Assembly: GCA_033182465.1 (NCBI GenBank)
Contig: CP137323.1
Location: 1,364,001 to 1,428,000, forward strand
Length of the DNA stretch: 64,000 bases
Source of the DNA: Sanghuangporus weigelae
Lineage: Eukaryota > Basidiomycota > Agaricomycetes > Hymenochaetales > Hymenochaetaceae
Direction of reading: 5' to 3'
The position numbers were made by a program, and so were the translations under genes. Of this stretch, positions 11,322 through 63,338 are shown in pieces. Position 1 is the first letter of the stretch. Each line of letters starts with the position of its first letter. The notes beneath the pieces were generated by a model. That model was not told the DNA's origin. It did not search any database and was given only the letters and a program-made list of their open reading frames with translations.

Positions 11322-11950
11322 GATTGTTGATGAGCAGGTTGTCTGCGGAGGTAACGCCGCACTGGACTCGTTATATGCGTCTCTCTTCGTCGGTCCTCGG
11401 AGTGACACCATGAAAAGCAATGATTTCTCACGATCACAAACGATCCCAACGCGAATGTAACTGTGCAATCTCTCTGATGTTGTTACAGTTGCGAATTCTT
11501 TCTAGAGACTCCTTCTAAGCTGCACAAAATAGGGATATCCCACTCCTGCGTTTTTCTGTGGATTTATCGTGCTTTTGACTGAGGTCTTGGGACATCGGTC
11601 CCTCGGCCTGTTTCGATGGAACGTGCGCGTAAGCGGAAAATATTGGTTCCTGCCTGTTCCGATCGGTCTCAAGAGGCGGGTTCTCGGAGATCAACGCGGA
11701 GTACGTCATCTTGAATTGCTCCAATTATACTTCAGTCAGGAGATTCGGATAGCTTTTGACGACTCAGGGTTGCTTGCAGCTCGAACTCGTACTCTCGCTG
11801 AATAAAACGCACACCGATTTCTGACCATCATGGAAGACACGGGTTGCTGTTTACTCGGATTTACTAATTGAAGTACTACGCAATCCTTGTAAACGCAAAT
11901 GAAACAAAAGACTCGACCAAGAAAGATCCTTGGAAGATGTGGTCATTCAT

Positions 11951-13718
11951 CTATAGACACTGCGAGTAGTAAGCGTTCGCCTGTTGGCATGTGTACGGGG
12001 CCGCGCAAACTATTGAATTAAAATTAGACAGAGAATTGATCAGTATACAAAGACCTCCTTACCTGTCGGTCCGGTCCAGCCTATACCGCCGCATTGGGCT
12101 TAAATAAAAAAGGTCAGCTTGAAACTCGATGGAATTGTCAGATTTATTCACCCCAATGCGCGGCTGTGCCTCCCGGGGTGCTGGTAGTCGAAGGAGCAGA
12201 AGGAGCAGAAGTGCTAGGCGATGAAGGTGCCGAAGTAGTTGGCGATCCAGAGCCAGGAGCGACATTGCTAATGCCAAACCAGTTGAGCACATCGTTCGCT
12301 TGCTCGGGCACTGTGTGACCGACACCCTGAGCCAAAATCGCCTGGACATTGGGACCGAATGAAGCTCTTGAATATCCGGGAAGCGGGTTATTGGTAATGT
12401 TGGATGTCGGTGTCTGGCTTACGTCGAAGACGTTCGTCCACTGTTTGATATCTTCCCAAAAGTTCTGAGGATAAAGAGTCGTGTCTCTGCGACGGCAATG
12501 AGATATGCGAAAATACATGGATCAAGGTCTTACACTGTTCCGTGCCAGAACTGGAATTTCGGGCGGATTCCAGTGAAGCCTGGGTAAGCGTTCCTCACCA
12601 AGTCACCCTAATATGATTTTTTTAAGACTATAACAACATTCAGGCCAAAGAAATTAAACACACCCATTGTTCAGGGGTCATAATAAGCTGGCCCGTAGAG
12701 CATTGCTAGTGGGACTGTCAGGGTGTCTCGGTCATATTGCGATCCAATAGGATTCTTAACTTACCGAATTCCACATATTCGGCCCTGCAAAACAACCGAA
12801 GGGCACACCGCTGAATGCAGAACCAGCCTTGAAGACGTCAGGATATCTGAAGAAAATGAGAGCTATGAGTATCCTGTAAAATGATCACCTGGTGAAGGCT
12901 ACTCACGCTTAAAGTTGAAATTATATCATTCAATGGTCAGATCAAAAAGAGAAAGGTAAGAAGGCCTCAGCATACCGCCCATCAGAACGTTCGTCATCAT
13001 AGCTCCGCTACTAGTACCAGTAGCAAATACAAGACTCGGGTCAACACCGTAGTTTTGAATGGCATAACGAACCTGGAGTCATACTAGGTTAAGCAGAGAC
13101 AAGAGACAGAAGATGCTCATCCGCTCACTTGCGAGACGATGCCCAAAGAATCTCCTCCTGCATCATGGGTGAGCGTCGCTTGAGTATGTACATCCCAGCA
13201 CTAAAGAAGTTAGGTTTGTGCTCGTAAGTTTTCACATAGGAAACACAACGCACTCCTCCCGAATCCGGAGCATTCGGATAAATAACCTAAGAGGAACAGG
13301 AGTGATCAGCTATGTTAATCTGGCCTAGCAATTTAAGTCATGAGGAACTACCATGAAACCATGAGTGTCCGCTAGGTTGGCATACTGGGTCCCCTGAAAA
13401 TAGGCCTGAGCCGTACCAGAGCAGTAGTGTATTGCCATGATGAGCGGTAGAGGATTCGCAAGGCGGGCAGGGCGGTAGACGAACATTCCGACCTAATTAG
13501 TAGTAATTCACACATATGGTTAGTAGAAAGCAGTTAGGTTAGATTGAACATACTTACATTCGTTGGATTAGGGCCAAAGTTCGTGACCTGAAATAAGTTC
13601 GATGTATATTAGCCGATGCATAGGAAATTTGGAGACTACAAACCTGAACGAGCTGTCCAGCCGCAGCGAATGCGCCAACCGCTGACAAGAGAAGAGTGGA
13701 AAGAGACTTGATGAACAT
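11951..13718 (-). CDS. Secreted CE1-family esterase (acetylxylan/feruloyl type) with C-terminal CBM1
   Basis: Thirteen exons give 358 residues: 13644-13718, 13558-13587, 13352-13492, 13254-13286, 13129-13200, 12976-13072, 12907 (one base), 12765-12846, 12664-12705, 12534-12607, 12152-12486, 12063-12098, 11951-12009. Order of parts: signal peptide (about residues 1-19, ending AFAAA), alpha/beta-hydrolase core of the polyhydroxybutyrate-depolymerase-like CE1 family with the nucleophile in GTSSGAMMTNVL, a conserved GAYPDVFKAG stretch, FWHGT and GHTVPEQ near the catalytic Asp and His, a Ser/Thr/Pro linker, and a complete CBM1 with its four cysteines (QCGG, TVC, YTC, SQC). The enzyme should act outside the cell on acetylated or feruloylated xylan, with the CBM1 holding it on cellulose. 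The one-base exon is the only solution found that keeps the conserved GAYPDVF reading. Whether acetate or ferulate is the true leaving group cannot be told. Confidence 0.93.
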
Positions 13719-15728
13719 TTTTTGGGAGGCGAATGACTACAGGAGTCGGACTACAAGCCAGCAAGACTTAAATACCCACTGAAGTTGGTTTAAATTTCGC
13801 GTTGGCATATGCATTCATGTCCAGAAAGTTGGTCAGATGACAGAACTCCGGCGCGTTGTTGTCGGTGGATACGCACCACGCGACGGTAATGCGTTGGCCG
13901 GGCATTTTTATGAAAATTTAGAAGCGGAGAAGTGCTCGGCACATATTCGGCAAAAACATCAAGGAATTGTTCAGGTGCGATGAGTATTCCTGTAGCATGT
14001 TCGTGTTCACAAAGCATGACGGAACGGAGAACATCTGGTCAGCTACCTGGGCTAAAAATACAATCAATCTTGAAAGAGACGTGGCAAGGAATGAATGAAG
14101 AGTGTAAGGCGTGCGGCCCAGTACTAGTGACTGCGAAGTGCATCATCGACTCACTTCTAACTGGCATTAGCCTCCCAACCGCGCGCGCAGGGAATGAATT
14201 AATTAGCAGTTTCTTCCGAACAAGAAGAAGAAACAGACACGATCGGGAGAATCCGGAGTAAATGTAGGTGGCGGGGCGCATGATCTTCGGTACATTCGGT
14301 ATGTTTTATACTATACATGTACAGAGAAGTATGTATTCCAAGATGCCTGCCTGGACTCATTCTATGCCGTCACACTATCATGGCAATCTTTGTGTAGGTT
14401 TGTTCGAGAATGATACTTGGATCAAGTCCAGGACTTATCATAATCCTTCTAGTCACGAAACCTCCGACATCCGTTCAACCGCTACCCGGCTAAGGCTGCT
14501 TCTGGCGTCTGACTTCGTGCATCGTTAGATAGCGCTAGGTGCGAAGACACCTAGTTCGCACTACATTATCCGGCCGACACGAATCCGAAGCAGTCCAGCC
14601 CTCTGAGCCTGTCAATGGAGTTGCAAAGACAGAAGAGGACGTTAGTCAGTCGGTGCATATTGAATATTTCGTGGTCGTGGTCGAGACCATCGATCGACGA
14701 GATCTGATGTCACGCGATTTGCCGATCGTGCCAAACAAGGGATGTCGGATATGTGCCTGCTCCCGAGAATGATAAAAGGCGACAACGAAACCACTATGAC
14801 TTTTGGAAGCTTCAATATTCGGACTGGCGAACAGTGAGTGACCACTGTACTGTAAATTTGTGTACCTAAGTGCCTTTCGGGAAACAAACAGTGAATTATC
14901 ATCGCGATGACGGAAAGGCACAGCGGTTCGGCCATCAAGCATTTCCTGATTGAGAAAGTCCCCGGACGAGCCGTATAAACATAGAACGACGAGAATATTG
15001 ATGTCATGGTCTTGCAAAGAAAAGACGAAATGCAACAAACGGACGGAGATCCGGATTATACGTTACGTACTCATAACAGACCACTAAATATGTTTCTCAC
15101 GTTCGTGACAGGCCCACGATCTCCTATGCCGCGTTCTATGCCGCGTTTTCCAACTCTACTTGGGCATGGAGCAACGTTCTGGAACATTAGCGTCCAAGGA
15201 ACCAGCTCCGTGTGAGCAGTAGGACTCGTACATGGTATGACTATCGCCACTACTCAAGTGGTGAAGAACTAACCAGTTGTGTTCATTCTTCTCATCAAGG
15301 GATCATATGTTTAGCAATAGCCTTTGCCTTCCCAGATTCAGAGCTCACCCGTATTGTCGGCATTCCTTCCAATCGGCCATCTTGAGCACCGGTGGGTCTT
15401 GTGATCCTTGATATAGTAAATCGAAGGTGCGAGACATTTCATTCATTTGCCGCTTTTTCTGCGCCCAACTGATCCCGTCTATTCTTGCTCAATTCTTTGT
15501 GAATCGTGACCAACCAGCGTAGTCAGATGTTACAGTTTGAGAAGTAGAGAAGCGCACCCCATAATCTCCAACGAATGGAAAAGCAAGATGCTGAGTCAAG
15601 TTGTGGATCTTCCGCGGACATTGTCAGATGATGATTGTTATATCTTTTGGTGGGTTACGGGTCCCTCTACTACCAACCTACCTTTCAGTCATCATTGTCA
15701 TCCAGCCACGCAGCGCAGGTTTGACTTC
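13719..15728. other. 2-kb divergent intergenic region between esterase and sugar transporter
   Basis: The region holds the promoters of two divergent genes whose products fit one pathway (polymer deacylation and sugar uptake). No coding frame with motifs is seen. From about 14430 rightwards the sequence is repeated, in diverged form, upstream of the decayed transporter copy (about 18345-19290), so this promoter was part of the duplicated unit. Confidence 0.5.
13767..13774 (-). promoter_or_regulatory. TATA-like box of the esterase gene
   Basis: TATTTAAG on the minus strand about 50 bases upstream of the esterase ATG at 13718, with a short pyrimidine-poor leader. Position and sequence fit a core promoter; no activity evidence. 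Confidence 0.4.
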
Positions 15729-26168: not shown

Positions 26169-29100
26169 ATGTCGTCTTTCATTGCAGCAGTTGCGACGCG
26201 TGTTGCTGACTCCGCTGACGCTGTCGCCCGTTCTCTCGGTCCTGTCGACTCTAATGGCGCCAAATCTCTCTCTCAGCTACGTGCCACCAGTCATGGTCCT
26301 GCCCGAGTAGCAGAGCTCCTTCAGAAGAGTGCTCAAGATGTGAGCGAAATTGCCGTACACGGCAAACCCTTCCATATATCGGATATCGTATGTAGTTCTA
26401 CCGCTTCTCGTCTTCATTGGCGTTGTGCCACTCAACATCACACTCCAGCCCGCCTACGTCGATGCTGTGAAGAACTTCAACGGCGGCACCGGGATTGACG
26501 ATCGGAAAATGCTTGTACGTTCCATGTTAATGAGCTCGTGCTCAGACTCTAAAACCGAAGAATGCAGCTGGAAAAGCTCCTCGTGTTGATGTCACGCCTC
26601 CCGGCCGACAACCAGTTCGCGAAGACATTGCAGGTTTTCGTCATTGACACGCGTAAGCCGCGTGCCCTTCTATCACCTTCTCTTCTTTTGGACTCGGTGC
26701 TGGAGTTCGCGAGGCCAGTAGGCTGATTCTTGAGTCGGTAATGTCCAGAAAGTTTCGACAATGCTTTCTGGGCATCTGTACACACGCCTCGGGAGCATGC
26801 GGCTCAACTGCGCCTCATCGGCATTCCTGAGCTTTGCTCCTTCACATTATATCGGTCCGAGATCTGTCTTGACCGCGGCAGCGAGATCGGATCGAAATCC
26901 CCGCCGTATTACCCATTACGGAAATTTCTACCTTTTGCCTTTTTCTGCGTTCTTTTCTCCGCTATGTCCGGAATGACCATGGCCAAATTGGCCATCATAT
27001 CCAATAGAAATTTACAGGCGGTGACCACAGTTGTCGATCCACGGGTTTGTCTCTGCACCGCTTTGTTGATTTCGGCACGAAGGCTAACAGCCCTTTCCTG
27101 CACTTTGTTTGGTGTTGTCTTGGACGTATGTACTTTGCGGAGGATGAGTAAAGCTTACAACATGTGTTAGAGCGAGATGGATTAAACTCCGATACTTACT
27201 CTGGCGCCGAACTCCGCGCAGCACTTCAGTCCATCTTTGTTCCGTTTCACATTAGTGTTCATTACGACTACTGATTCCATTTTCCATCAGTTTACAAGGA
27301 CCTTCCGCATCCTCCAGCCGCCTATCTTCCCTCGAATCCATATCTTCCTAACATAGGTGCTCTGTCCTATCCTTCCACCAATCCGTCGAGCTATACCAAC
27401 GGTCACGCAAATGGCCACGCAAATGGATCCGCCGACCAAGCCTCGACCGCGCACGTAAGGCATCCTTATTCACACCCAGCCTACGGTGTCCATCGCCCGT
27501 ATGCAGCAAGAAGTGCCGACGGAAGTGGATACAGTACGGTGTACCCTGACATGGGTGCTGCAGGTAAACCATACGCTCGAACTGTCCCACCTACGCACCC
27601 AGGTATCAATTGGCCGGATGCGGGTCTGGTCTTCGACGCTCTCCTGAAGAGACAGCCATCTAGCGGAAAGAAAGGCATCTTGCCTTCATCAAATCCGAAT
27701 GCCGAACCAGGACATTCAACGTTACCTACAACAAACCTAACTGGCTTTGCTCGCCATCCAGGAGGATTGAGCTCGCTATTCTTTGTTTTCGCGGATCTCG
27801 TCATTCACTCCGTATTCAATACCAATCATTCGGATTGGTCGATCAATAATGTTTCATCCTATCTCGACTTAAGCCCCTTATACGGTAGCAGTGAGAAAGA
27901 TCTGAAGAAAGTGAGGCGCGTGGACGGCACGGGCAAGCTCTACGAGGACGTGTTTGCGGATGGGAGATTGCTTTTTATGCCCCCAAGTGTTCCTGCGCTC
28001 TTAGTATTATTCTGTCGAAACCATAACGTAAGTCCTTCGTTCATGCAATAGTCCGTTATAACTGTCTGTGCAGTACATTGCGTCAAAACTCCTGACGATC
28101 AACGAGTCTGGCACATACGTTTCCGGAACAGCCCTCGAGGAGCTGAATGAAGATGACAAAAAAGCTCAGGTAGCATAGGTTATCAGCGGGATCTTCCTGA
28201 TGTTTCTAACAAAGCCGCCATACAGGATGATGAGATTTTTTCTCGTGCTCGTCTAGGTAATTCAATTTTACTTAACTGCCGGTCATTCTCATCCCCTTAT
28301 CTCTGAAAATAAGTCAACTGCGGTTGGTTTATGCAGGTTATCCTTGGTGATTACGTCGGCGCGATCCTAGGACTGGTCAGGGATGGTTGTGAATGGCGGT
28401 TGGATCCTCTGGCGGTAAACACAGTGCTTCTTCGTTTGCTTTATTCCTGACAGTTGCGCAGGAATCGCGCGAATCGGATCATTCCGTGAGCCCGCGTGGT
28501 CAGGGTAACGTTGTTTCACTCGAGTTCAATCTACTTTATCGTTGGCATGCGGCGCTCAGCGAACGCGATACAGCTTGGACCGAGCTCATCTTTGAGAAAT
28601 TTTTTGGAACACGAGACTTTAGTTCCGTAGGTCTTCTCGCATATCTCGCATCATTTACTTCGTATAAGTGACCATCGCCATTTATTTTATAGATCACAGT
28701 AGACCAGTTTCAGAAGACTCTTGCGGAGAAGCTTCGACCTGATCCAGATGTAAGAAAGTGGACATTTGATGGGTATGCTTGGTCTACTGTTGTGTCACGT
28801 CTCGTTGCTGAAGCCAGCATGGTCTTGATCAAGCGTCGACAACGTAGAACTTGTCCGAAATCCGTCGACCGGCGCTTTCAACGACTCTGACCTCGCGGCA
28901 CTGTTGTATGCAGCTACAGAAGCTCCCGCCGGTGCATTCAAGGCCCGCGGTATTCCTGAGGTGCTTCGCGTCGTGGAATTGATGGGTATTGAGCAAGCTC
29001 GACAATGGGGAACAGCCACGGTGAGAGTACAGAATTTAGCCGCTCAACGGTTCTCTTACGAAAATCGTAGATGAATGAGTTCAGAAAGTTCATGGGGCTC

Positions 29101-31410
29101 AAACCGTTCTCATCCTTCTCGGAATGGAATTCTGATCCTGATATAAGTGTACGGCTTTGGATGGGTGGTGTCCTTTTCTTCGCTAACGAGATCTCCAGAG
29201 GACTGCGGAGATGCTGTACGGAAATGTCGACAACTTGGAGCTGTATCCTGGACTAATGGCTGAGGAAGCTAAGCCTCCGATACCCGGAGCCGGGCTTTGT
29301 CCTGGTTACACGATTAGCCGTGCGATCCTTGCCGACGCCGTCGCTCTTGTTCGAGGAGACAGATTCTTGACTACAGACTTCACCGGTACGACGCTTTCTC
29401 TCCTGATGAGTTTCAGACGTCTTATCGTTTCCCCGACTTTAGTTTATAATCTGACATCCTGGGGCTATTTGGACTGCTTCTCTCATAAGGATGATGGTGC
29501 ATATGGCGGTATACTTACGCGGCTTTTATATCGCACACTTCCGGAGTATTATCCTGCCCGATCGTCTTATGCTCGGTTCCCATTCATTGTACCCAGTGCG
29601 ATGGAAGGTTACCTGAGGGAGCTCGTCGACAGTCCCGTAGCGAAATACGAATTTAAGCGACCGAAGACACCCGTCCTGGAAGTGTGCGAGGCACGCTACG
29701 AGACTGTAAAGGATATCTTGGCGGATCACAGAGACTTTAGAAGCGACGTCAACAGAAAATTAGTGTCCTTAATTGGCACTGCGGGGCTCGATATCAGCTT
29801 GGTGTGTCGTTCCTTACTCATTTGTAGAGCATGCCGATGACTTACCTGTCATTCCAAGATCAACAAAGCGCTTGATTTCTTTATTCAGCGAAGGCAGTAT
29901 CCAGCGATTCTCGAGCACATTACTTCTAAGCTCATCGCAGAGAAATCAACACCTGATTTTACTTCAAGAAACAACGTCAAGTTTGTCGATATCGTCCATG
30001 ATGTGATCAATCTGGTTCCCGTTTATTTCGTTGCAACAGAATTGCTCGGGATTCCTATCAAGACGGAACAGACACCTCATGGGCTATTCCGTGATATAGA
30101 GTATTCATCTATGTTCGCTGACATCTGCAAGTGAGTATACTTGTATTTACACCAGCTAAAGGATATAACATCAACCACTTATACATCGGTATTAGCTATG
30201 TCCTCCTGAACAGAGAGCCTTATATGGATTGGGTCTTGCGAGAGAGAGCAACAAAGTCATCTATCGCGATAACGGATGTCATTTCAGAACATCTGAAGAG
30301 GCTCGCTGGACAGGGCATTGTAAGCCCTGCTCACTTCGTTTCTGTATCATGACCTCAACTCTGCCTTTGCTTAGATCGGGAAAGTCACGGGTTCGCTCAT
30401 CCAGTGGTACACTGGGGAAGATAAGTTTAGCGACATATTTCTTTCGCGAGTCCTTGAAAGCGTTCCAAGAGGCAAACATGTTGCGGAGAGTATTTTTGCC
30501 ACTATCATCCCGACTATTGCGCTGTATTCGAAGTCCATTGTGCACATCGTCGACTTCTTTTTGAAGGAGGAGCAAACTTCCGCTCGGGAACTGCTTGTCC
30601 AATTGACACGAGACAAGTCTGTGGGAGGTGACGAGAAGCTTTATGCACTTGCATGTGAAGCGCTTCGTAAGCAAATCGCACTTTATACTCAAGAGGTGAA
30701 ATTCAAGTGAACACTTCGCCAGGAGTAAATCCTCCGGTGTCGAGCGTAGTGCGAGAAGACGTCCACGGGGAACTAAATAACGGAAATCCAGAGCAAGTCT
30801 ATCTCAGCGTTGCTGAGGCCAACCTAGACGTAAGTTCCTGTGCTTTACTCGAGCAATATCCTGATGTACCTTAACAGCGATCCGTTTTTGGAGAAAATTC
30901 CATCGCTGCCGACCTCGAGCACCCCAGAGCGGGGTTGACTGGACTGGAGGACTATGGGTATCGAATCTCTTGTAGTTGTGTTGTATGAACTATGACACTC
31001 ATTGCCTTTGCATTTAGTCTAACGAGCACATCGTTCTTTAAATCCGTAAGTTATCATATTCTGCTATTGACAAATTCATATCGCTCACTTTGTGTACGAA
31101 AGACTGTTCCTGCGGTGTTGCGTGCTATATTCAAGCTGAAGAATTTGCAGAGTGCTCCAGGACCGAGAGGAAGTCTTCGTAGGTGAGTGCACGTTTCAGG
31201 GATCACTAGTTGCGCACAGGAGGTCCGATATTGATGCTGTCGTTGTCCTAGGATTGTCGAGACTGTGCATGGATGCCCGGAAGTCGAGTACTTGAACGAA
31301 AGGAGCGAGATAACACCGTTCCCTACTTCGATGTTTGTACAGGTGAGTTGCACAGAACTTTTCGAACGTCTGCTTGTGAGTTCTGATGATTATGCCGACA
31401 GTATGAGTAA
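26169..31410 (+). CDS. Psi-producing oxygenase (Ppo)/linoleate diol synthase-like, with degenerate P450 half
   Basis: Twenty-two exons, 1157 residues: 26169-26387, 26449-26514, 26568-26652, 27291-28027, 28074-28169, 28226-28256, 28314-28414, 28462-28626, 28693-28772, 28834-29020, 29071-29148, 29199-29385, 29443-29801, 29859-30130, 30196-30319, 30375-30666, 30723-30829, 30878-30957, 31018-31045, 31103-31182, 31252-31342, 31402-31410. The N-terminal half is an animal-peroxidase-like heme dioxygenase: FADLVIHSVF with distal-side His, SSYLDLSPLYG, and LLYRWHAALS carrying the catalytic Tyr and proximal His. The C-terminal half follows the P450 fold (NLTSWGYLDC, then helices and an ALR motif) but has no Cys heme-ligand loop: the expected G-x-H-x-C-x-G site reads EDYGLTSTSFFKS. 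Family members convert linoleate to hydroperoxides; loss of the Cys would leave 8- or 10-dioxygenase activity without isomerase, as known for some Aspergillus paralogues. Intron 3 (26653-27290) is 638 nt, ten times the norm. Confidence 0.9.
26673..27262 (-). CDS. Candidate antisense gene nested in oxygenase intron 3
   Basis: Proposed ex nihilo from splice signals: exons 27200-27262, 26913-27118 and 26673-26826 give an ATG-to-TGA frame of 140 codons lying wholly inside the 638-nt intron, with about 20 bases spare on each side. Exon 1 ends at a perfect GTAAGT donor; the second intron has GTAATA and CTCAG ends. The product is basic, with a central helical, partly hydrophobic stretch (TACKFLLDMMANLAMVIP), a Cys pair near the start (LKCCAEF) and a KKRR end. 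No family is recognised. The introns would be 81 and 86 nt, longer than usual here, which lowers confidence. Alternatives: a fragment of another gene inserted with its introns, or chance open frames in an inserted non-coding element. Confidence 0.4.
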
Positions 31411-35819: not shown

Positions 35820-37602
35820 GGGGGCGAATCAGCCAGGGGCCGGTGCCGCTACTGCGGCGCAGACCTTGCGGAAGAGAGCTGAAAAGACTCCTGCCGCCCC
35901 CCGGGCCAAGGCACCACCTAAAGAAAACTGGTGACAAGACCGTATCAAATCCTACAGAATCAAGTAACCCACCGAACTCGCTGGTCCATACTGAAGAGTC
36001 GGGACCCGAAACAATTCTTATTAACGACGACGGATCGGCCTATCCTCATCCATCATCCTCGCACCAGCAAGTACGTCAGCCCCCGACCCCCAAGGGGCCT
36101 GCCATCCTTGGCAAACAGGCTCACGAGTACACTGGGAAGGATTTCGATGACGACAATAGGCTCAAAATCGATGGGTCCAACTATTTTGCATAATAAGGTA
36201 ACAGAACAGCAGCTGAGGCACTGATCAGTTTGATTCACAGAAACGCTCTCCAAATGTTCTTACCCCCAGGGCTCCCAACACTACGTCGCTTCAAGCAAGA
36301 AACTCGCCCAGACAACGTCTTTGGAACACCCAAACGCGCCTCGTCAAGTGCTACGTAATACCAGAGGAGCAACCCACACATACCGACCACTACCCGATCA
36401 TCACCACACTCGACCTAGCAACTAGCGAATCCACTCAACCGGAACAGAAAAACTTCTACAAGACAGACTGGGAGGAATTCAGGAAAGTACTGGAAAACGA
36501 ACTGACTCTTACCTCCCCCTGAGTTTCATCACCACACCGGAGGACTTCGACAGTCAAATACACCACCTATGACGCGCACTTCAAGCTGCAGAAACAGCAG
36601 CTGTTCCAATCATCAAGAAATCAAGGTACATGCGGAGATGGTGGTCCCAGGAACTCACAGATCTTGTGAAAACAGAAGCGCTGACTACTCCGAGCAGCAC
36701 ATCTCCACCGCCACAGCCCTAATCATCTGATCCATGAGGAAGCAAAAACGGCACGGCGTAATTTTGAGCGGGAATGAACAGAGCCAAGAAAGCACGCTGG
36801 GGATCATTCCTAGATACGATAGAGGCCCCTACTCTCTACACAGCGAGCCGCTACGCCACAGGTATCCCCCACGACGGTGGAAAAGCGAGGATAATGGAAC
36901 TCAAACACCCTAACGACCCGGCAGAAGAACCTCTCGCCCGAACGAACGAGGACAAAGCCAAGGTGTTCATCCGCACCCTCTTCTGCCCTCTACCAGACTT
37001 GGCCACACTGCAAATACTGAGTACTACACAGTATCCCCCTCAGGCACATTCGAGCTCCCTCAAATAACCAAGGAGCAATTGGACCGACAAATTAAAAAGA
37101 TGGGACCCTTCAAGGCACCGGGTCCCGACGGTATTCCCAATGTTGTTTACCAACGATGCGCTGACATCATTGTCCCATACCTTCTCCTTCTGTCCAGGCA
37201 TCGATACGTATCCCTTACTACCCACAGGAGTGGAAGGACTCCCGAACAATAGTTCTCAGGAAACCAGAAAAGCCTGACTACACCACCAGCAAGTCATACC
37301 GGCCAATCGCCATCCTCAATTCGGATGCAAAAATACTTTCTGGATGCCTGGCGGCAGTGCTATCCCACAGAGCGACACATCTAGGACTGCTACCACCAAA
37401 CCACTTCGGCATACTACAACAGACGCAACCCACTATGTGATCGCCAGCGTCAAACAGGCACAGCGCAGACGTCTGGCAACCGCCACACTCTTCCTCGACA
37501 TCCAAGCAGCCTTCCCCAGTACCTCAATAGACAGGCTCATACACGATCCCCGCAGTACCGGCATCCCGCGCGCTTTCTCCGTGCTGAAGCACGACGCTCG
37601 AG
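35820..37602 (+). mobile_element. Ruined non-LTR retrotransposon (LINE), 3' truncated
   Basis: Pieces of a LINE in several plus-strand frames. A short ORF1-like start lies at 35823 (Ala/Lys-rich, ends after ~45 codons). An endonuclease tail is visible near 36365-36500 (THTDHYPIITTLDL followed by YKTDWEEF). Reverse transcriptase motifs follow: MGPFKAPGPDGIPNVVY near 37105, SYRPIAILNSDAKIL near 37295, and FLDIQAAFPS near 37492. The frames are broken many times by stops and frameshifts, so the copy is long dead. The palm motif after FLDIQAAFPS and the 3' end are missing: the sequence stops at the inserted hAT-like element at 37603, and the right flank does not resume the RT. The clade is not certain; a Tad/jockey-like group is plausible. 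Confidence 0.75.
37595..37602 (+). repeat. Left target-site duplication of hAT-like element
   Basis: CGCTCGAG directly before the left terminal repeat; repeated exactly at 38256-38263. Confidence 0.8.
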
Positions 37603-39669: not shown

Positions 39670-41206
39670 CTACAGGCGGTCTGAAGATGGCATGAGCGAT
39701 TGTAATAGTAAATCAGAGCAGAGACATGTAGTACGTACTGGTGTTGCCCAAGTCGGCGCAAGCTTCTTTCACACGAGTTACCAGTGTCTTCTCTCCTTCG
39801 CGAACCCAGATACGAGGATCGTAGTACTAAAAAGCAGGCCTTAATTAAACAATTATAATAATTCAAATGAAGTATACTTGCCTTCTTGTTCGGCTTGTCG
39901 GGACCCTCGGGGTTTCCAACCTGAGTTTGCAGATAACCACTCTTGCTCTGGACGAAATCCCTAATTCCTTGAAGGTATGCAAACTGCGTGTCGGTGTCCA
40001 CATTCATCTTCACCGCGCCATTTTCGACCGCTGTCTTGATCTCTTCTTTTGATGAGCCAGAACCACCGTGGAATACGAGGAACAGAGGTTTCGGATCCTT
40101 GCCCTTGAGTTGCTGGGCTGCGTATGCCTGATGCTTGCCTAATAGCTCGGGGTGCAGACGGACGTTGCCAGGTTTGTAGACACCGTGGACATTCCCGAAG
40201 GCAGCGGCGATAGAGAAGTTAGGACTGATCTTGGATAATGCGGTAAAAATATCGTAAACGTCTTCGGGTTGCGTGTAAAGGGCCGAATTGTCAACTCCGG
40301 TGTTATCTACGCCGTCTTCCTCGCCACCGGTGATTCCGATCTCCATCTCGAGCCAAAGATTAAGCTTGGCCATCTCGGTGAAGTATTTGACACACGTGGA
40401 GATGTTCTCTTCCTTCGATTCCTCCGAAAGGTCGAGCATGTGCGAACTGAACAGTGGCTCACCATGCTGCGCAAAGTACGCCTTGTCTGCTTCGAGCATA
40501 CCGTCAAACCAAGGTAGTAGCTTCTTCGCGCAGTGATCTGAATGGAGGATAACGGGGCTAACAACAGAGTGGTCAAAGATCATGCGGAGAAAGACGGACT
40601 GAGGTGAGGAGAATACTTACACGCCGTACTCTTTTGCCACCGTTCGGACGTGATGTGCGGCGGCAATGGCACCAGTGATGGATGCCTTTTGACCGTCATT
40701 GGAAAGGCCCTTTCCAGCAAAGTACGCTGAACCGCCTTGCGAGACCTGAATGATGATCGGCGCTTTGATGTCACTGGTGTATGCCTCAGTATTGAAATTT
40801 AAATGCTACTCTTAAGGCAGACGTACCGAGCAGCTTCAAGGACAGCGTTGGCTGTCGACGAGGATGTTACATTCTGACGGAAGTTTAGTCATACCATTCT
40901 ACAAGATAGGACGGTGGAGACATACGATAGCCTAGAAGAAATCCGGTCGAATCGCGGCTCAAGCCTTCTTCCCCAACGACATAGCATTGGCTGGGACTCA
41001 CCGGAATGGCGAACTTTGATACTCATGAGTCAACCGAACGACATCAAAGGATCAGAAATCTCACCTTGTGCTCGCGAGCATACTCAAAGACATTGCGAAC
41101 CTGGTCGCCTGTGATTACACCGGCCTTCCGTGGCAAGCGTCGTGAGATAGGAGAAAGAGGCAGCGAGAGAATCGAGACTTACGGGTACGATGTCAAGAAC
41201 GCCCAT
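39670..41206 (-). CDS. FBA1: Class II fructose-bisphosphate aldolase
   Basis: Nine exons, 358 residues: 41183-41206, 41065-41124, 41002-41013 (12 nt), 40926-40931 (6 nt), 40827-40873, 40621-40773, 39882-40557, 39739-39826, 39670-39680. The zinc-dependent enzyme splits fructose 1,6-bisphosphate in cytosolic glycolysis. Signatures: FAIPAINVTSSSTANAVLEAAR, IIIQVSQGGSAYFAGKG, the zinc ligands in VILHSDHCAKKLLPW, the ITGGEEDGVDN loop, VHGVYKPGNV, FHGGSGSSKEEI with a zinc His, and MNVDTDTQFAY. FAIP and AI come from the 12- and 6-nt exons, and the family consensus runs unbroken only if both are used. The intron at 39827-39881 has a GC donor (GCAAGT), forced by the conserved NKK/YYDPR join. The last exon supplies an NTNRL end; reading through that donor would instead give an NTSTYYMSLL end, so the final intron is probable rather than certain. 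Length equals yeast Fba1. Confidence 0.96.
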
Positions 41207-49353: not shown

Positions 49354-52300
49354 TCAGTATCCCGTTGGTCGCGAATGTGTTTTTGAGGTATCATATGCAC
49401 GAATAAGACGAGCTTGATCCTGCTTAGCGGGATCCTCTGTCTGTGAAAATGCAAAACCTCGACTTCTTCGCATGCGCTGCACTGCGCGAACTTTCTTGAT
49501 TGCCTTCTGGAATCTGGAATTGCACAGTAAGCAATCTACCTGGGGCATACTGCTATGAGGAAACGTACTGTTCTTGTCGTGGTCGATAATCCGGAATATT
49601 ATACTTTTGCAGTTCTTGCGCGATATGATAGGACAAGGGCATATACGTCCGTCGGTAGCTAAATGAAATGAGTATGTTATCGGCCGCCGCAATGCTGTAA
49701 TACTCACTATTTCCACACGAAGTCACGAGCCAAACAGACTACGGGAACAAGAATCATCGTAAGATAGAATACCGCATCTGTCCATAGTCTTGGTACAATG
49801 CCCTCATATTCCTTTGAGAAGCCGATCTTGGGCGCGACAACCGCGTAAACCGGGAGGAACAGCATGGTAAACACGAAGGATCCGGGAATGGCCGCGACGG
49901 TATATTTTGTCCAGATACTATCCCGATGTTAAAATCAGATTAGCTGTACGAAAGAAAGAAGACGTCATTTACGCACTCAGATACCAGAGCAGCTTTTCCC
50001 AAAACCGTCAGGAGCGTTGTAAGATACAATGTTGTGCCCCAAAACCACAAACCACTATCAAAGCCCGAGCTTTGCTTGAGGTCGCCCCAGAAAAGAACGA
50101 CAGTGAATGCAAATAACACAAGGCTATGATAAAAGGCATTTGCGACCCATTGCCAGAACGAAGTCTTCGTGAAGAAAGTGTTCTGTTGACCGAGCACATA
50201 GAGTTGTGGATACCTGTCCAGGACCCGTGCAGATACGAACTGATCAAAGATTCCGATAACGAGAGGAGGCAGAACGGTAAAAAGCACGTTGTATAGAGAG
50301 AACGTCCATGACTCGAACGACGTCTGACCAGAGAAGTTGTTGAAGAATGAGAACTGCACGAAGTATCAGTAGTCTGCATTCGCCACACCTCACGTGAACG
50401 TACCCAAAATTGTGTCATGTACAGAGTGATGTTCTTGTAGAACGAGTCTTCGATGAAATGAACGGATCAGTACAAAAGTTCGCAGAAGCATCGAAAAGAA
50501 CCCCACAGAGGATGAGCTTTGATAGCCGCCGGTAACTCCATGCACCATGTACTAATAGCAGTTTCTTCAGATATCGGAATTGCGAAATTGCAACGTCTGA
50601 TGAACGAGCTGCTTGCAGACCCTGAAAATCGATTGAAGAACAGAACAAACTGGAAGAACAAAAAAACTACCAACCTCCACTCCAGAAATACCGACTCCTA
50701 CATGAGCTGCCTGAATCATGCTCACGTCATTTGCGCCATCTCCGATAGCCAGAAGAATCGCCTTCTGGTTCTTTTTGACAAGCTTTACCACGAGCGCCTT
50801 CTGAAGTGGAGAGACACGACCTTTGAAATAAAGGAATAATTCATCAGATGCAATAATCGAATCAGGATGAAAGAAGAATACTAACAACAGATGACGGCCT
50901 TGCACATGATCGCGAGTTCCAAGAACGTCTTCGAAAGATCTTTCTCCAGCGCGAAAGTCAAACTCTTGCCATCTACGCTCTTACTCAGCAACAGGAGAGG
51001 GTTCGAAGGTAATGCGCTTACCAATGACGAGAGCTAAGTCTTCCAACTCTCCCGATTTTCTCTGGTTCGATATCGCGCTTAGTCTCTTGGAAAGAAATTC
51101 CTTCGTTGCCAGTGCAGACTCCTCATTTACAATCACCAGATTCATCGACTCCGAAATCAACCGACAACTCATCCCAATGTTTATTGCAGTTTCCTGCCGG
51201 TCGCCTGTCAATACCCAAACTTTGATGCCTGCCATTTGAAGCGTATGGATAGTGTCAGGAACTCCCTCCTGTAACTTGTCTTCGATGGCAGTCGCGCCCA
51301 GTAAGAAAAGGTCTTTTTCTATGATTTCCGCTGCAGCGTCCAGCGCTTCGCCTCGTCCATTGATCGTTGCAGCTGCTTGGTCGTAAACTTTCGACCACTC
51401 GCGATATTCTGCTTCAGAAACATCTCGGAAGGCGATACAAAGAGTGCGCAAGCCCTCGGTGGCATAATCCTAAAATACCCAAACATATTAAACTGATGTT
51501 CACGGGTACGAAGTGTATCTGTAACCTACCTCAAGATGTGCAAGAGTTTTCTCAACGTATTGTTGATTCTTGCCAAGTCTCTCCAAAATGACGGTATCTG
51601 CGCCCTTGCAGTACAGCTTTATCTGGCCATCGGGATTTCGTACAATGGTAGACATGCGCTTTCGTGTTGAATTGAACTCGCACACGTTCAGAACTTCAAA
51701 CTCCTTAGGCACCCCGTCGATATTGATAAAGACCGATCTAGGCTTTCGAGTCTAGGGGGGAAAGAGCATCAGCCGTGACTACCAAAATGTTACAACCTGC
51801 AACTCACATGGAACTGATAGCCGAGAAGTTCAGCACCTGCGACCAACGCGGCTTCATCCGGGCTACTAGCTTGGTACGTTATCTTGCCGTTATCCTTCAC
51901 CTCTGGAATAACCGTATGGCACACGGCGAGCAACCGGAGGAATTCCCTCGTGACATGGATGTCCTGCGCACCATCCTTGTTATCGCTGACATCTACGAAC
52001 GGGTTGCGGGTATCACCAGCATTGCCTCGAAGAACAGCACGAAGCTCCGCGAAGGAACGCCAGCCCTCCTTGCCTTCGTCAGCTTCACCGCGTTTGTTAT
52101 CGTCAATAGAGTCAGAATATGGGATGCCGGCAATGGAGCAGCACCTGAACTCCATCACATTGCACGTCAGAGTGCCTGTCTTGTCTGAGAAGACATACTC
52201 GATCTGTCCGAGCTCCTCCACTAGGGATGACGTTCGACAGAGCGCCGGAGTATCCGTATCAGGATAATACATATCAAGGTCAAAATTGATGAGTTGCGCC

Positions 52301-62285: not shown

Positions 62286-63338
62286 ATGAGCTCCAACGGC
62301 CCGCCAAAAGACTACCGCTTTCCGCACGAGCGCCTACGAAGAGTTCTGCAAGATGCCTCCAAGCAGCCAGTCGTCCTCGTCGCGTGCGGATCATTCTCAC
62401 CAGTTACCTATCTTCATCTCCGAATGTTCGAAATGGCTGTTGACTACGCTCGCCAAAATACCGACTTCGAGATCGTGGGCGGATACCTCAGTCCTGTCAG
62501 TGACATGTACAAAAAGCCTGGGCTCCTCAGTGCAGAGCATCGGTAAGTGCGAATGGCACGGTTGTATCGCGTCTATATCACGCCATCTTATGTGAGTTCC
62601 CAGTATGAATATGTGTAATATTGCGGCTTCGCGCGAGTCGACATGGCTTATGGTCGATCCATGGGAGGCATTCCAGTCCTACCAACGCACTGCAGTTGTG
62701 CTTGACCACTTTGAGCGCGAAATAAACGATGTTCTCGGAGGCGTCCAAACCGAAGATGGAGAGCACCGTCGGGTCCGTGTCATGCTTCTTGCGGGCTCAG
62801 ACCTAATCAGTACCATGTCGGAACCTGGCGTTTGGTCGGAAGAAGATGTAAGTATCCAATCGTGCGAGCTCGCGAGAAGGTTCGGGGCTGTGCACCACTT
62901 GGTGGTTCAGTCAGCTGAATCTTCAGACCAATACAAACAAACAAGCCATATGACTCGATTGCTGACAACTTCTTTTTCTAGTTGGATCACATTCTTGGAC
63001 GCTATGGGTGCTTCATCGTTGAACGCGCTGGGTCCGACATTACTCAAGCGACGGATGCCCTCGCAAAATGGCGACACAACATCTACATTATCTCGCAGAT
63101 GATTCAAAATGATGTTTCATCGACTAAAGTCCGACTTTTTCTTCGTCGCGGGCTTTCCGTACGGTACCTCCTCCCTGCGTCCGTCATCGAATATATTGAA
63201 CAGAACGGCCTTTACCTCGATGAGGGACCGAACCATGCCGATCTACAATACAGACAACAGCTTTACCGGGACTGGGACCGCGAGCATGAAAAGTCAACAG
63301 CGTCGTCGTCAACCTCCGCACCGAGCGTAAAATCGTAG
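62286..63338 (+). CDS. Nicotinamide/nicotinate mononucleotide adenylyltransferase
   Basis: Three exons, 285 residues: 62286-62542, 62604-62847, 62982-63338. The enzyme makes NAD(+) from NMN or NaMN and ATP, in nucleus and cytosol. Diagnostic motifs: GSFSPVTYLHLRMFEMA near residue 35 (the GxFxPxTxxH nucleotide site), GGYLSPVSDMYKKPGL, ESTWLMVDPWEAFQ, LLAGSDLISTMSEPGVW, RYGCFIVERAGSD and VSSTKVRLFLRRGLSVRYLLP (the ISSTxxR ATP site), with a Ser-rich tail. Intron 2 (134 nt) is longer than usual but is forced by the EED/LDHILGRYG join. The start is the ATG before SSNGPPKDYRFPHERL; nothing in frame upstream is better. It matches the length of fungal Nma1/Nma2 cores without their long N-terminal extension. 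Confidence 0.95.

Follow-up and report, generated by a model that had tools for sequence, protein, structure and literature searches.

The closest described system to the locus analysed here is the Fusarium CYP621A gene, a nuclear P450 gene of an ascomycete in which one base lies between two short introns, and which its authors call the first one-nucleotide exon of a fungal gene (PMC12940212). The gap that holds this exon is 139 nt long, the base is a G (AGGGT) that forms the middle of a split codon within a conserved motif, the spacing was judged against an intronless relative, and the exon is backed by 20 orthologues and RNA reads (PMC12940212). The Arabidopsis APC11 gene features a frame-essential A flanked by AG and GT within a 422-nt gap, proven with cDNA and reporter constructs and proposed to be spliced sequentially by intron definition (PMC4674806). 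The plant APC11 and VPS55 microexons form conserved clusters with RNA-seq support, and the donor following the one-base exon of VPS55 is kept as GTRAGT (PMC8831610). The same study reports that reads over such exons were mapped correctly by STAR only when the exon was given as an annotation (PMC8831610). Among mitochondrial genes, rnl of Ophiostomatales and Ceratocystis, a fungal rRNA gene with group II introns that are removed without the spliceosome, has a single base between two introns (PMC12308204), and placozoan cox1 also has a one-nucleotide exon (PMC5436844). Annotated 1-bp exons are mentioned for some species without experimental confirmation, in a passage that names no fungi (PMC3064661). 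In the P450 genes of the white-rot basidiomycete Phanerochaete chrysosporium, tiny exons are numerous, introns often measure 45–55 bp, and the shortest reported exon is 6 bp (PMC1184071). A search of open-licence titles returned no one-nucleotide exon in a basidiomycete nuclear gene, esterase or carbohydrate-active enzyme, which does not prove its absence, and no open-licence paper on micro-exons in Agaricomycetes; the two mentions of introns in one esterase paper supplied no basidiomycete gene structure from which intron positions of relatives could be taken.

The locus compared here with these systems is an esterase gene of Sanghuangporus weigelae, located within a window of 64,000 nucleotides that is the whole stretch of DNA analysed. 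Nuclear one-nucleotide exons are already published, and the esterase case is, as read from its sequence, a further and well-supported example. As in CYP621A, one base is predicted between two short introns of a fungal nuclear gene, the gap (129 nt) is about twice the normal intron size, the base sits in the middle of a codon that the introns divide, within a conserved motif, and the spacing is judged against intronless relatives. The esterase differs from CYP621A in encoding a carbohydrate esterase family 1 (CE1) enzyme, in having C as the exonic base and in being known from the sequence of one genome alone. It shares with APC11 the AG and GT flanks and the need of the base for the frame, with VPS55 the form of the following donor (GTGAGT), and with the mitochondrial rnl genes a single base between two introns in a fungus.

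The esterase gene spans positions 11951–13718 on the minus strand from start to stop codon and is composed of 13 exons in a spliced model supported by profile and PDB matches. Its introns measure, in order, 56, 65, 65, 53, 56, 68, 60, 59, 56, 47, 53 and 53 nt, with the ten introns other than introns 6 and 7 ranging from 47 to 65 nt. The initial annotation had given this model 359 codons and a C-terminal CBM1. The codon count stands at a total of 1077 nt with the stop codon counted in, so the product is 358 amino acids long, and the CBM1 is confirmed by a match of the whole PF00734 (CBM_1) profile to the C-terminus (51.6 bits, E 8.4e-14). Profile searches identify in the product both this fungal CBM1 and a CE1 / PHB-depolymerase-type esterase domain: the spliced protein is matched by PF10503 (57 bits) and more weakly by PF00326, and it exceeds the cut-offs of both TIGR01840 (132.7 bits) and NF050058. 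The top PDB match is the acetylxylan esterase A structure 5x6s (E 1.7e-86), followed by the feruloyl esterase 8iy8 (E 2.6e-74). The former belongs to the same enzyme family and, as a protein structure, is silent on gene structure. The family is presumably CE1, a name taken from papers rather than from a CAZy search. All characterised fungal enzymes of CE1 subfamily 1 are acetylxylan esterases (PMC6116738). Judged from these matches, the gene most likely encodes an acetylxylan esterase of CE1, an enzyme that degrades plant cell walls, which carries a cellulose-binding module at its C-terminus. The gene finder prefers an alternative first exon, which makes the 5′ end of the gene less certain and leaves the one-base exon finding unaffected. 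The short, dense introns and the domain composition would fit an Agaricomycete. The predicted neighbours of the gene encode a phosphoglycerate kinase (PF00162; 9836–11411, minus strand) and a sugar transporter (PF00083; 15631–17972, plus strand). Further along the window, positions 27162–31406 of the plus strand carry a long predicted gene of 20 exons, the product of which presumably resembles a fungal Ppo-type fatty-acid dioxygenase.

The 129-nt gap between exons 6 and 8 (12975–12847, minus strand) very probably consists of two ordinary GT-AG introns around a one-nucleotide exon, the C at position 12907. Exon 6 (97 nt, 13072–12976) encodes VRYAIQNYG...GTSSGAMMTNVLMG and ends with ATG GGC G, its frame being fixed by gap-free homology. 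Exon 8 (82 nt, 12846–12765) opens at 12846 with ATATCCTGAC, is read as A TAT CCT GAC and encodes YPDVFKAGSAFSGVPFGC, with the frame again fixed by homology. Position 12907, a G on the plus strand and a C on the minus strand, is directly preceded by TTTAAG and directly followed by GTGAGT, and a re-reading of the exon and gap coordinates bears out the single C that had been proposed between AG and GTGAGT. The predicted intron 6 (68 nt, 12975–12908) runs from GTATGC to TTTAAG; its candidate branch site is CTGAC, whose A lies 29 nt upstream of the 3′ end of the intron. The predicted intron 7 (60 nt, 12906–12847) runs from GTGAGT to CTTCAG, and here the candidate is CTCAT, whose A lies 19 nt upstream of the 3′ end. 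Exon 7 would provide the middle base of codon 150, GCA (Ala150), which is split as G|C|A and located twelve residues past Ser138, the middle serine of the GTSSG motif. The C links this motif to YPDVF in frame.

The splice signals of introns 6 and 7 were compared with those of other introns predicted in the window by a home-made gene finder that was trained on this single 64-kb window. For the first run, the seed comprised the esterase coding sequence, including the C, and the other ten introns of the gene; this run also placed the one-base exon. Its 103 introns, with introns 6 and 7 excluded, have a median length of 57 nt and serve as the percentile reference, a set that probably contains at least one mispredicted long intron (51021–50881). 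Splice-site scores, lengths and candidate branch sites of introns 6 and 7 all lie within the range of the predicted introns. Intron 6 is at the 26th percentile for its donor, which is weak, and at the 47th for its acceptor, while intron 7 is at the 64th and 99th respectively. Their lengths, at the 87th and 70th percentiles, agree with the earlier claim that 68 and 60 nt are normal intron sizes. A CTNAY motif at least 6 nt before the intron end is present in just 52 of the 103 predicted introns, so the branch-site support for introns 6 and 7 is weak.

For a second run of the gene finder, the region 11900–13920 was held out of training and a generic consensus served as the starting point; this run picked the one-base exon as well. 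Without the donor of that exon, the best path was 6.65 nats worse and took a 13-nt exon in its place. This run over-predicts introns, ending with 173 training introns, and exons of at most 15 nt make up 23 of the 182 internal ones, including exon 7, a one-base exon at 36796 and a two-base exon at 50928–50927. The over-prediction of tiny exons makes the held-out result support rather than proof. The second one-base exon, a C at 36796 on the minus strand, is located near other tiny exons and is followed by the non-consensus donor GTGCTT; this call is probably an artefact. The two-base exon sits in a gene that is explained by a better model. At 51021–50821 on the minus strand, the 141-nt intron of the gene finder can be replaced with an 87-nt exon (50972–50886) in an open frame, flanked by introns of 49 and 65 nt; this gene presumably encodes a P4-ATPase flippase.

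Alternative splice models across the gap were enumerated as one- and two-intron GT-AG combinations with introns of at least 40 nt and sites between approximately 13012 and 12825. With GT donors, this yielded 11 distinct stop-free products, six of which retain both the TGTSSGAM and the FKAGSAFSG motif, and the model containing the C is the only one of the six with unchanged length. When GC donors are allowed as well, 40 products result, 16 of which keep the motifs, and the length is still unchanged in only one. No other enumerated model holds both motifs together with their spacing, in agreement with the initial annotation, which had found that the conserved-motif reading needs the single C. 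Its claim that a single 129-nt intron shifts the frame is likewise upheld: the protein lacking the C stops at codon 186, and this candidate scores only 178.5 bits against the family profile described below. The further claim that all other acceptors in the gap run into an early stop is incorrect. Use of the acceptor that ends at 12863 leaves the frame open with an intron of 113 nt, and open frames also result from two-intron models with middle exons of 10 or 13 nt and from a model with a GC donor at 12971. The error about other acceptors does not alter the one-base exon conclusion.

The spacing between the motifs was compared with that in relatives of the esterase. The alignments with 5x6s and 8iy8 have no gap through SSGAMMTNVLMGAYPDVF, and 5x6s exhibits 49% identity to the esterase protein over 272 columns with a gap-free junction. 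Bacteria are without spliceosomal introns, and bacterial relatives were collected as six loci fetched from 275 tblastn plasmid records and the best 80 of 218 from a scan of genome contigs. A first genome-contig scan gave 18 pattern matches and scans of viral contigs gave 4 and 41, none of which was confirmed as an esterase relative. The 21-residue segment that spans the junction has no insertion or deletion in 86 of the 86 aligned bacterial loci (32–56% identity to the query), a count that overstates the independent evidence since the loci are mostly from related actinomycetes (Nonomuraea and others) and were aligned to the C-containing model itself as query. At the split codon the 86 loci carry D (20), A (20), L (16), N (11), V (10), T (6), S (1), G (1) and I (1). 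Ala thus ties with Asp as the commonest residue, and among the four possible GNA codons GCA encodes the residue most frequent in the relatives. Since this residue varies across the relatives, the length of the segment is under tighter constraint than the base.

A family profile was built from the 86 bacterial loci and the two structures, and six variants of the gene model were scored against it. The C-containing model scores highest with 365.0 bits, followed by the GC-donor model (359.2), the 10-nt exon (357.3), the 13-nt exon (355.8), the 113-nt intron (355.5) and the 129-nt intron. The margin of the C-containing model over the other open models, 6–10 bits, is modest. The models with 10- and 13-nt middle exons were rejected, even with their frames open, because they depart from the family spacing and score lower against the profile.

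The frequency of such an arrangement by chance was estimated by looking for a one-base exon that leaves two introns of 44–85 nt within the gap. The comparison was made with dinucleotide shuffles and with real slices, the latter being overlapping pieces of the window placed between the gap's own ends. Any one-base exon is found in 1,378 of 20,000 shuffles (6.9%) and in 2,339 of 18,254 real slices (12.8%), so AG-N-GT alone is not rare and the rarity lies in the quality of the signals. With C as the exonic base the counts are 84 and 656 respectively, and when donor and acceptor must each score no lower than observed they are 1 of 20,000 and 12 of 18,254. Rescuing exons of 1–22 nt without a stop, whatever their quality, are present in 25% of another 5,000 shuffles, and ones of equal summed score in 0.22%. 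The internal donor and acceptor of exon 7 score 13.1 bits together, versus at most 6.2 bits within the 11 predicted introns of at least 90 nt, four of which contain no candidate internal acceptor-donor pair; this control required two introns of 44–85 nt, which four introns of 94–101 nt can hardly fit, and seven of the 11 are at least 125 nt long. One of the longer predicted introns (134 nt, 62848–62981, plus strand), in a nucleotidyltransferase gene (PF01467), runs from GTAAGT to TTCTAG with strong sites and without an inner exon, so single introns near the size of the gap may occur in the window. No copy of intron 6 or 7 with a match longer than 12 bases was found elsewhere in the window.

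Tiny exons are also predicted in the class II fructose-bisphosphate aldolase gene (39713–41206, minus strand), which has consecutive micro-exons of 12 nt (FAIP, 41013–41002) and 6 nt (AI, 40931–40926). Together these build the motif FAIPAINVTSSST, which is gap-free against the two solved aldolases among the matches shown (7rgn and 7yva). As the aldolase needs both exons, the genome appears to tolerate tiny exons elsewhere.

The best-surviving alternative to the one-base exon is a one-base genomic error or frameshift mutation, for instance in the GGG run of ATGGGCG, combined with a single 129-nt intron, in which case the AG-C-GTGAGT would be coincidental. Assemblies commonly carry one-base errors, an extra G in the GGG run would give MGRYPDVF with normal spacing when read by eye, and an intron of 134 nt is predicted in the nucleotidyltransferase gene. 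Against this, the chance of the AG-C-GTGAGT coincidence is approximately 1 in 1,000 or less, the ten remaining introns of the esterase gene reach no more than 65 nt, and the remainder of the 13-exon frame is intact. The Arg that the extra G would place at the split codon occurs in 0 of the 86 relatives, compared with 20 for Ala. An error or mutation is thus considered improbable.

A single 113-nt intron (12975–12863, minus strand) ending in CATAG is a canonical GT-AG intron with an open frame, for which one splicing event suffices. It would add 16 bases to the mRNA (CTCTCATTTTCTTCAG) and five extra residues to the protein, giving MGALIFFRYPDVF, at a site where 86 of 86 aligned relatives carry none, and its profile score is 9.5 bits below that of the C-containing model. 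Its acceptor is at the 17th percentile and its length at the 93rd among the 103 predicted introns. The closest CTNAY is 74 nt before its end, with weaker YTNAY motifs at 30 and 14 nt, and the bases that it would insert look like part of the following acceptor, its pyrimidine tract and CAG. This reading is given very little credence. A 125-nt GC-AG intron (12971–12847) fares worse still: it leaves the frame open, yields MGGIYPDVF and falls just 5.8 bits under the C-containing model, yet it adds one residue relative to 86 of 86 aligned relatives, and its donor TAT|GCTGAG scores −9.0 bits, below all 103 introns on a matrix derived from GT donors only, which leaves it a negligible probability. Nested introns are known in ascomycetes (PMC6616335; PMC12403724), but a stwintron or other nested arrangement, with one intron inserted into a splice element of the other and a single outer junction, is exceedingly improbable here, as zero nested GT-AG combinations with introns of at least 40 nt in the gap retain both motifs in frame.

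In the model with the one-base exon, introns 6 and 7 would each be recognised on their own by intron definition, and recognition across the intron should suffice since both are of normal size with a full set of signals. The two introns would be removed stepwise, one and then the other, because simultaneous binding of splice sites separated by a single base is unlikely. Intron 7 probably leaves first, given its stronger sites, followed by intron 6. The removal of intron 7 would leave AAG|CATATCC, an ordinary acceptor for intron 6. The same stepwise argument was made for APC11, with reference to an example from potato where the second intron is removed first (PMC4674806). Recursive splicing, in which the removal of the first part would regenerate a donor, would yield an identical mature mRNA and is indistinguishable from this pathway by sequence. 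A broader scenario, put forward tentatively and rather doubtful as a whole, is that the exon is an independently arisen, constitutive one-nucleotide exon of a basidiomycete, with intron 7 always spliced out ahead of intron 6. If the second step failed, or if the 129 nt were removed in one piece, a frameshifted mRNA with the stop at codon 186 would result, and splicing efficiency could set the amount of esterase.

One-base exons show that the spliceosome needs little exon sequence when introns are short and recognised singly. The esterase would add a case from a different gene family and probably a different fungal lineage, with a C in place of a G or A, which would suggest that such exons originate repeatedly and that cases are being missed. 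Annotation programs that bar one-base exons would break the esterase gene or splice it wrongly midway through the catalytic domain.
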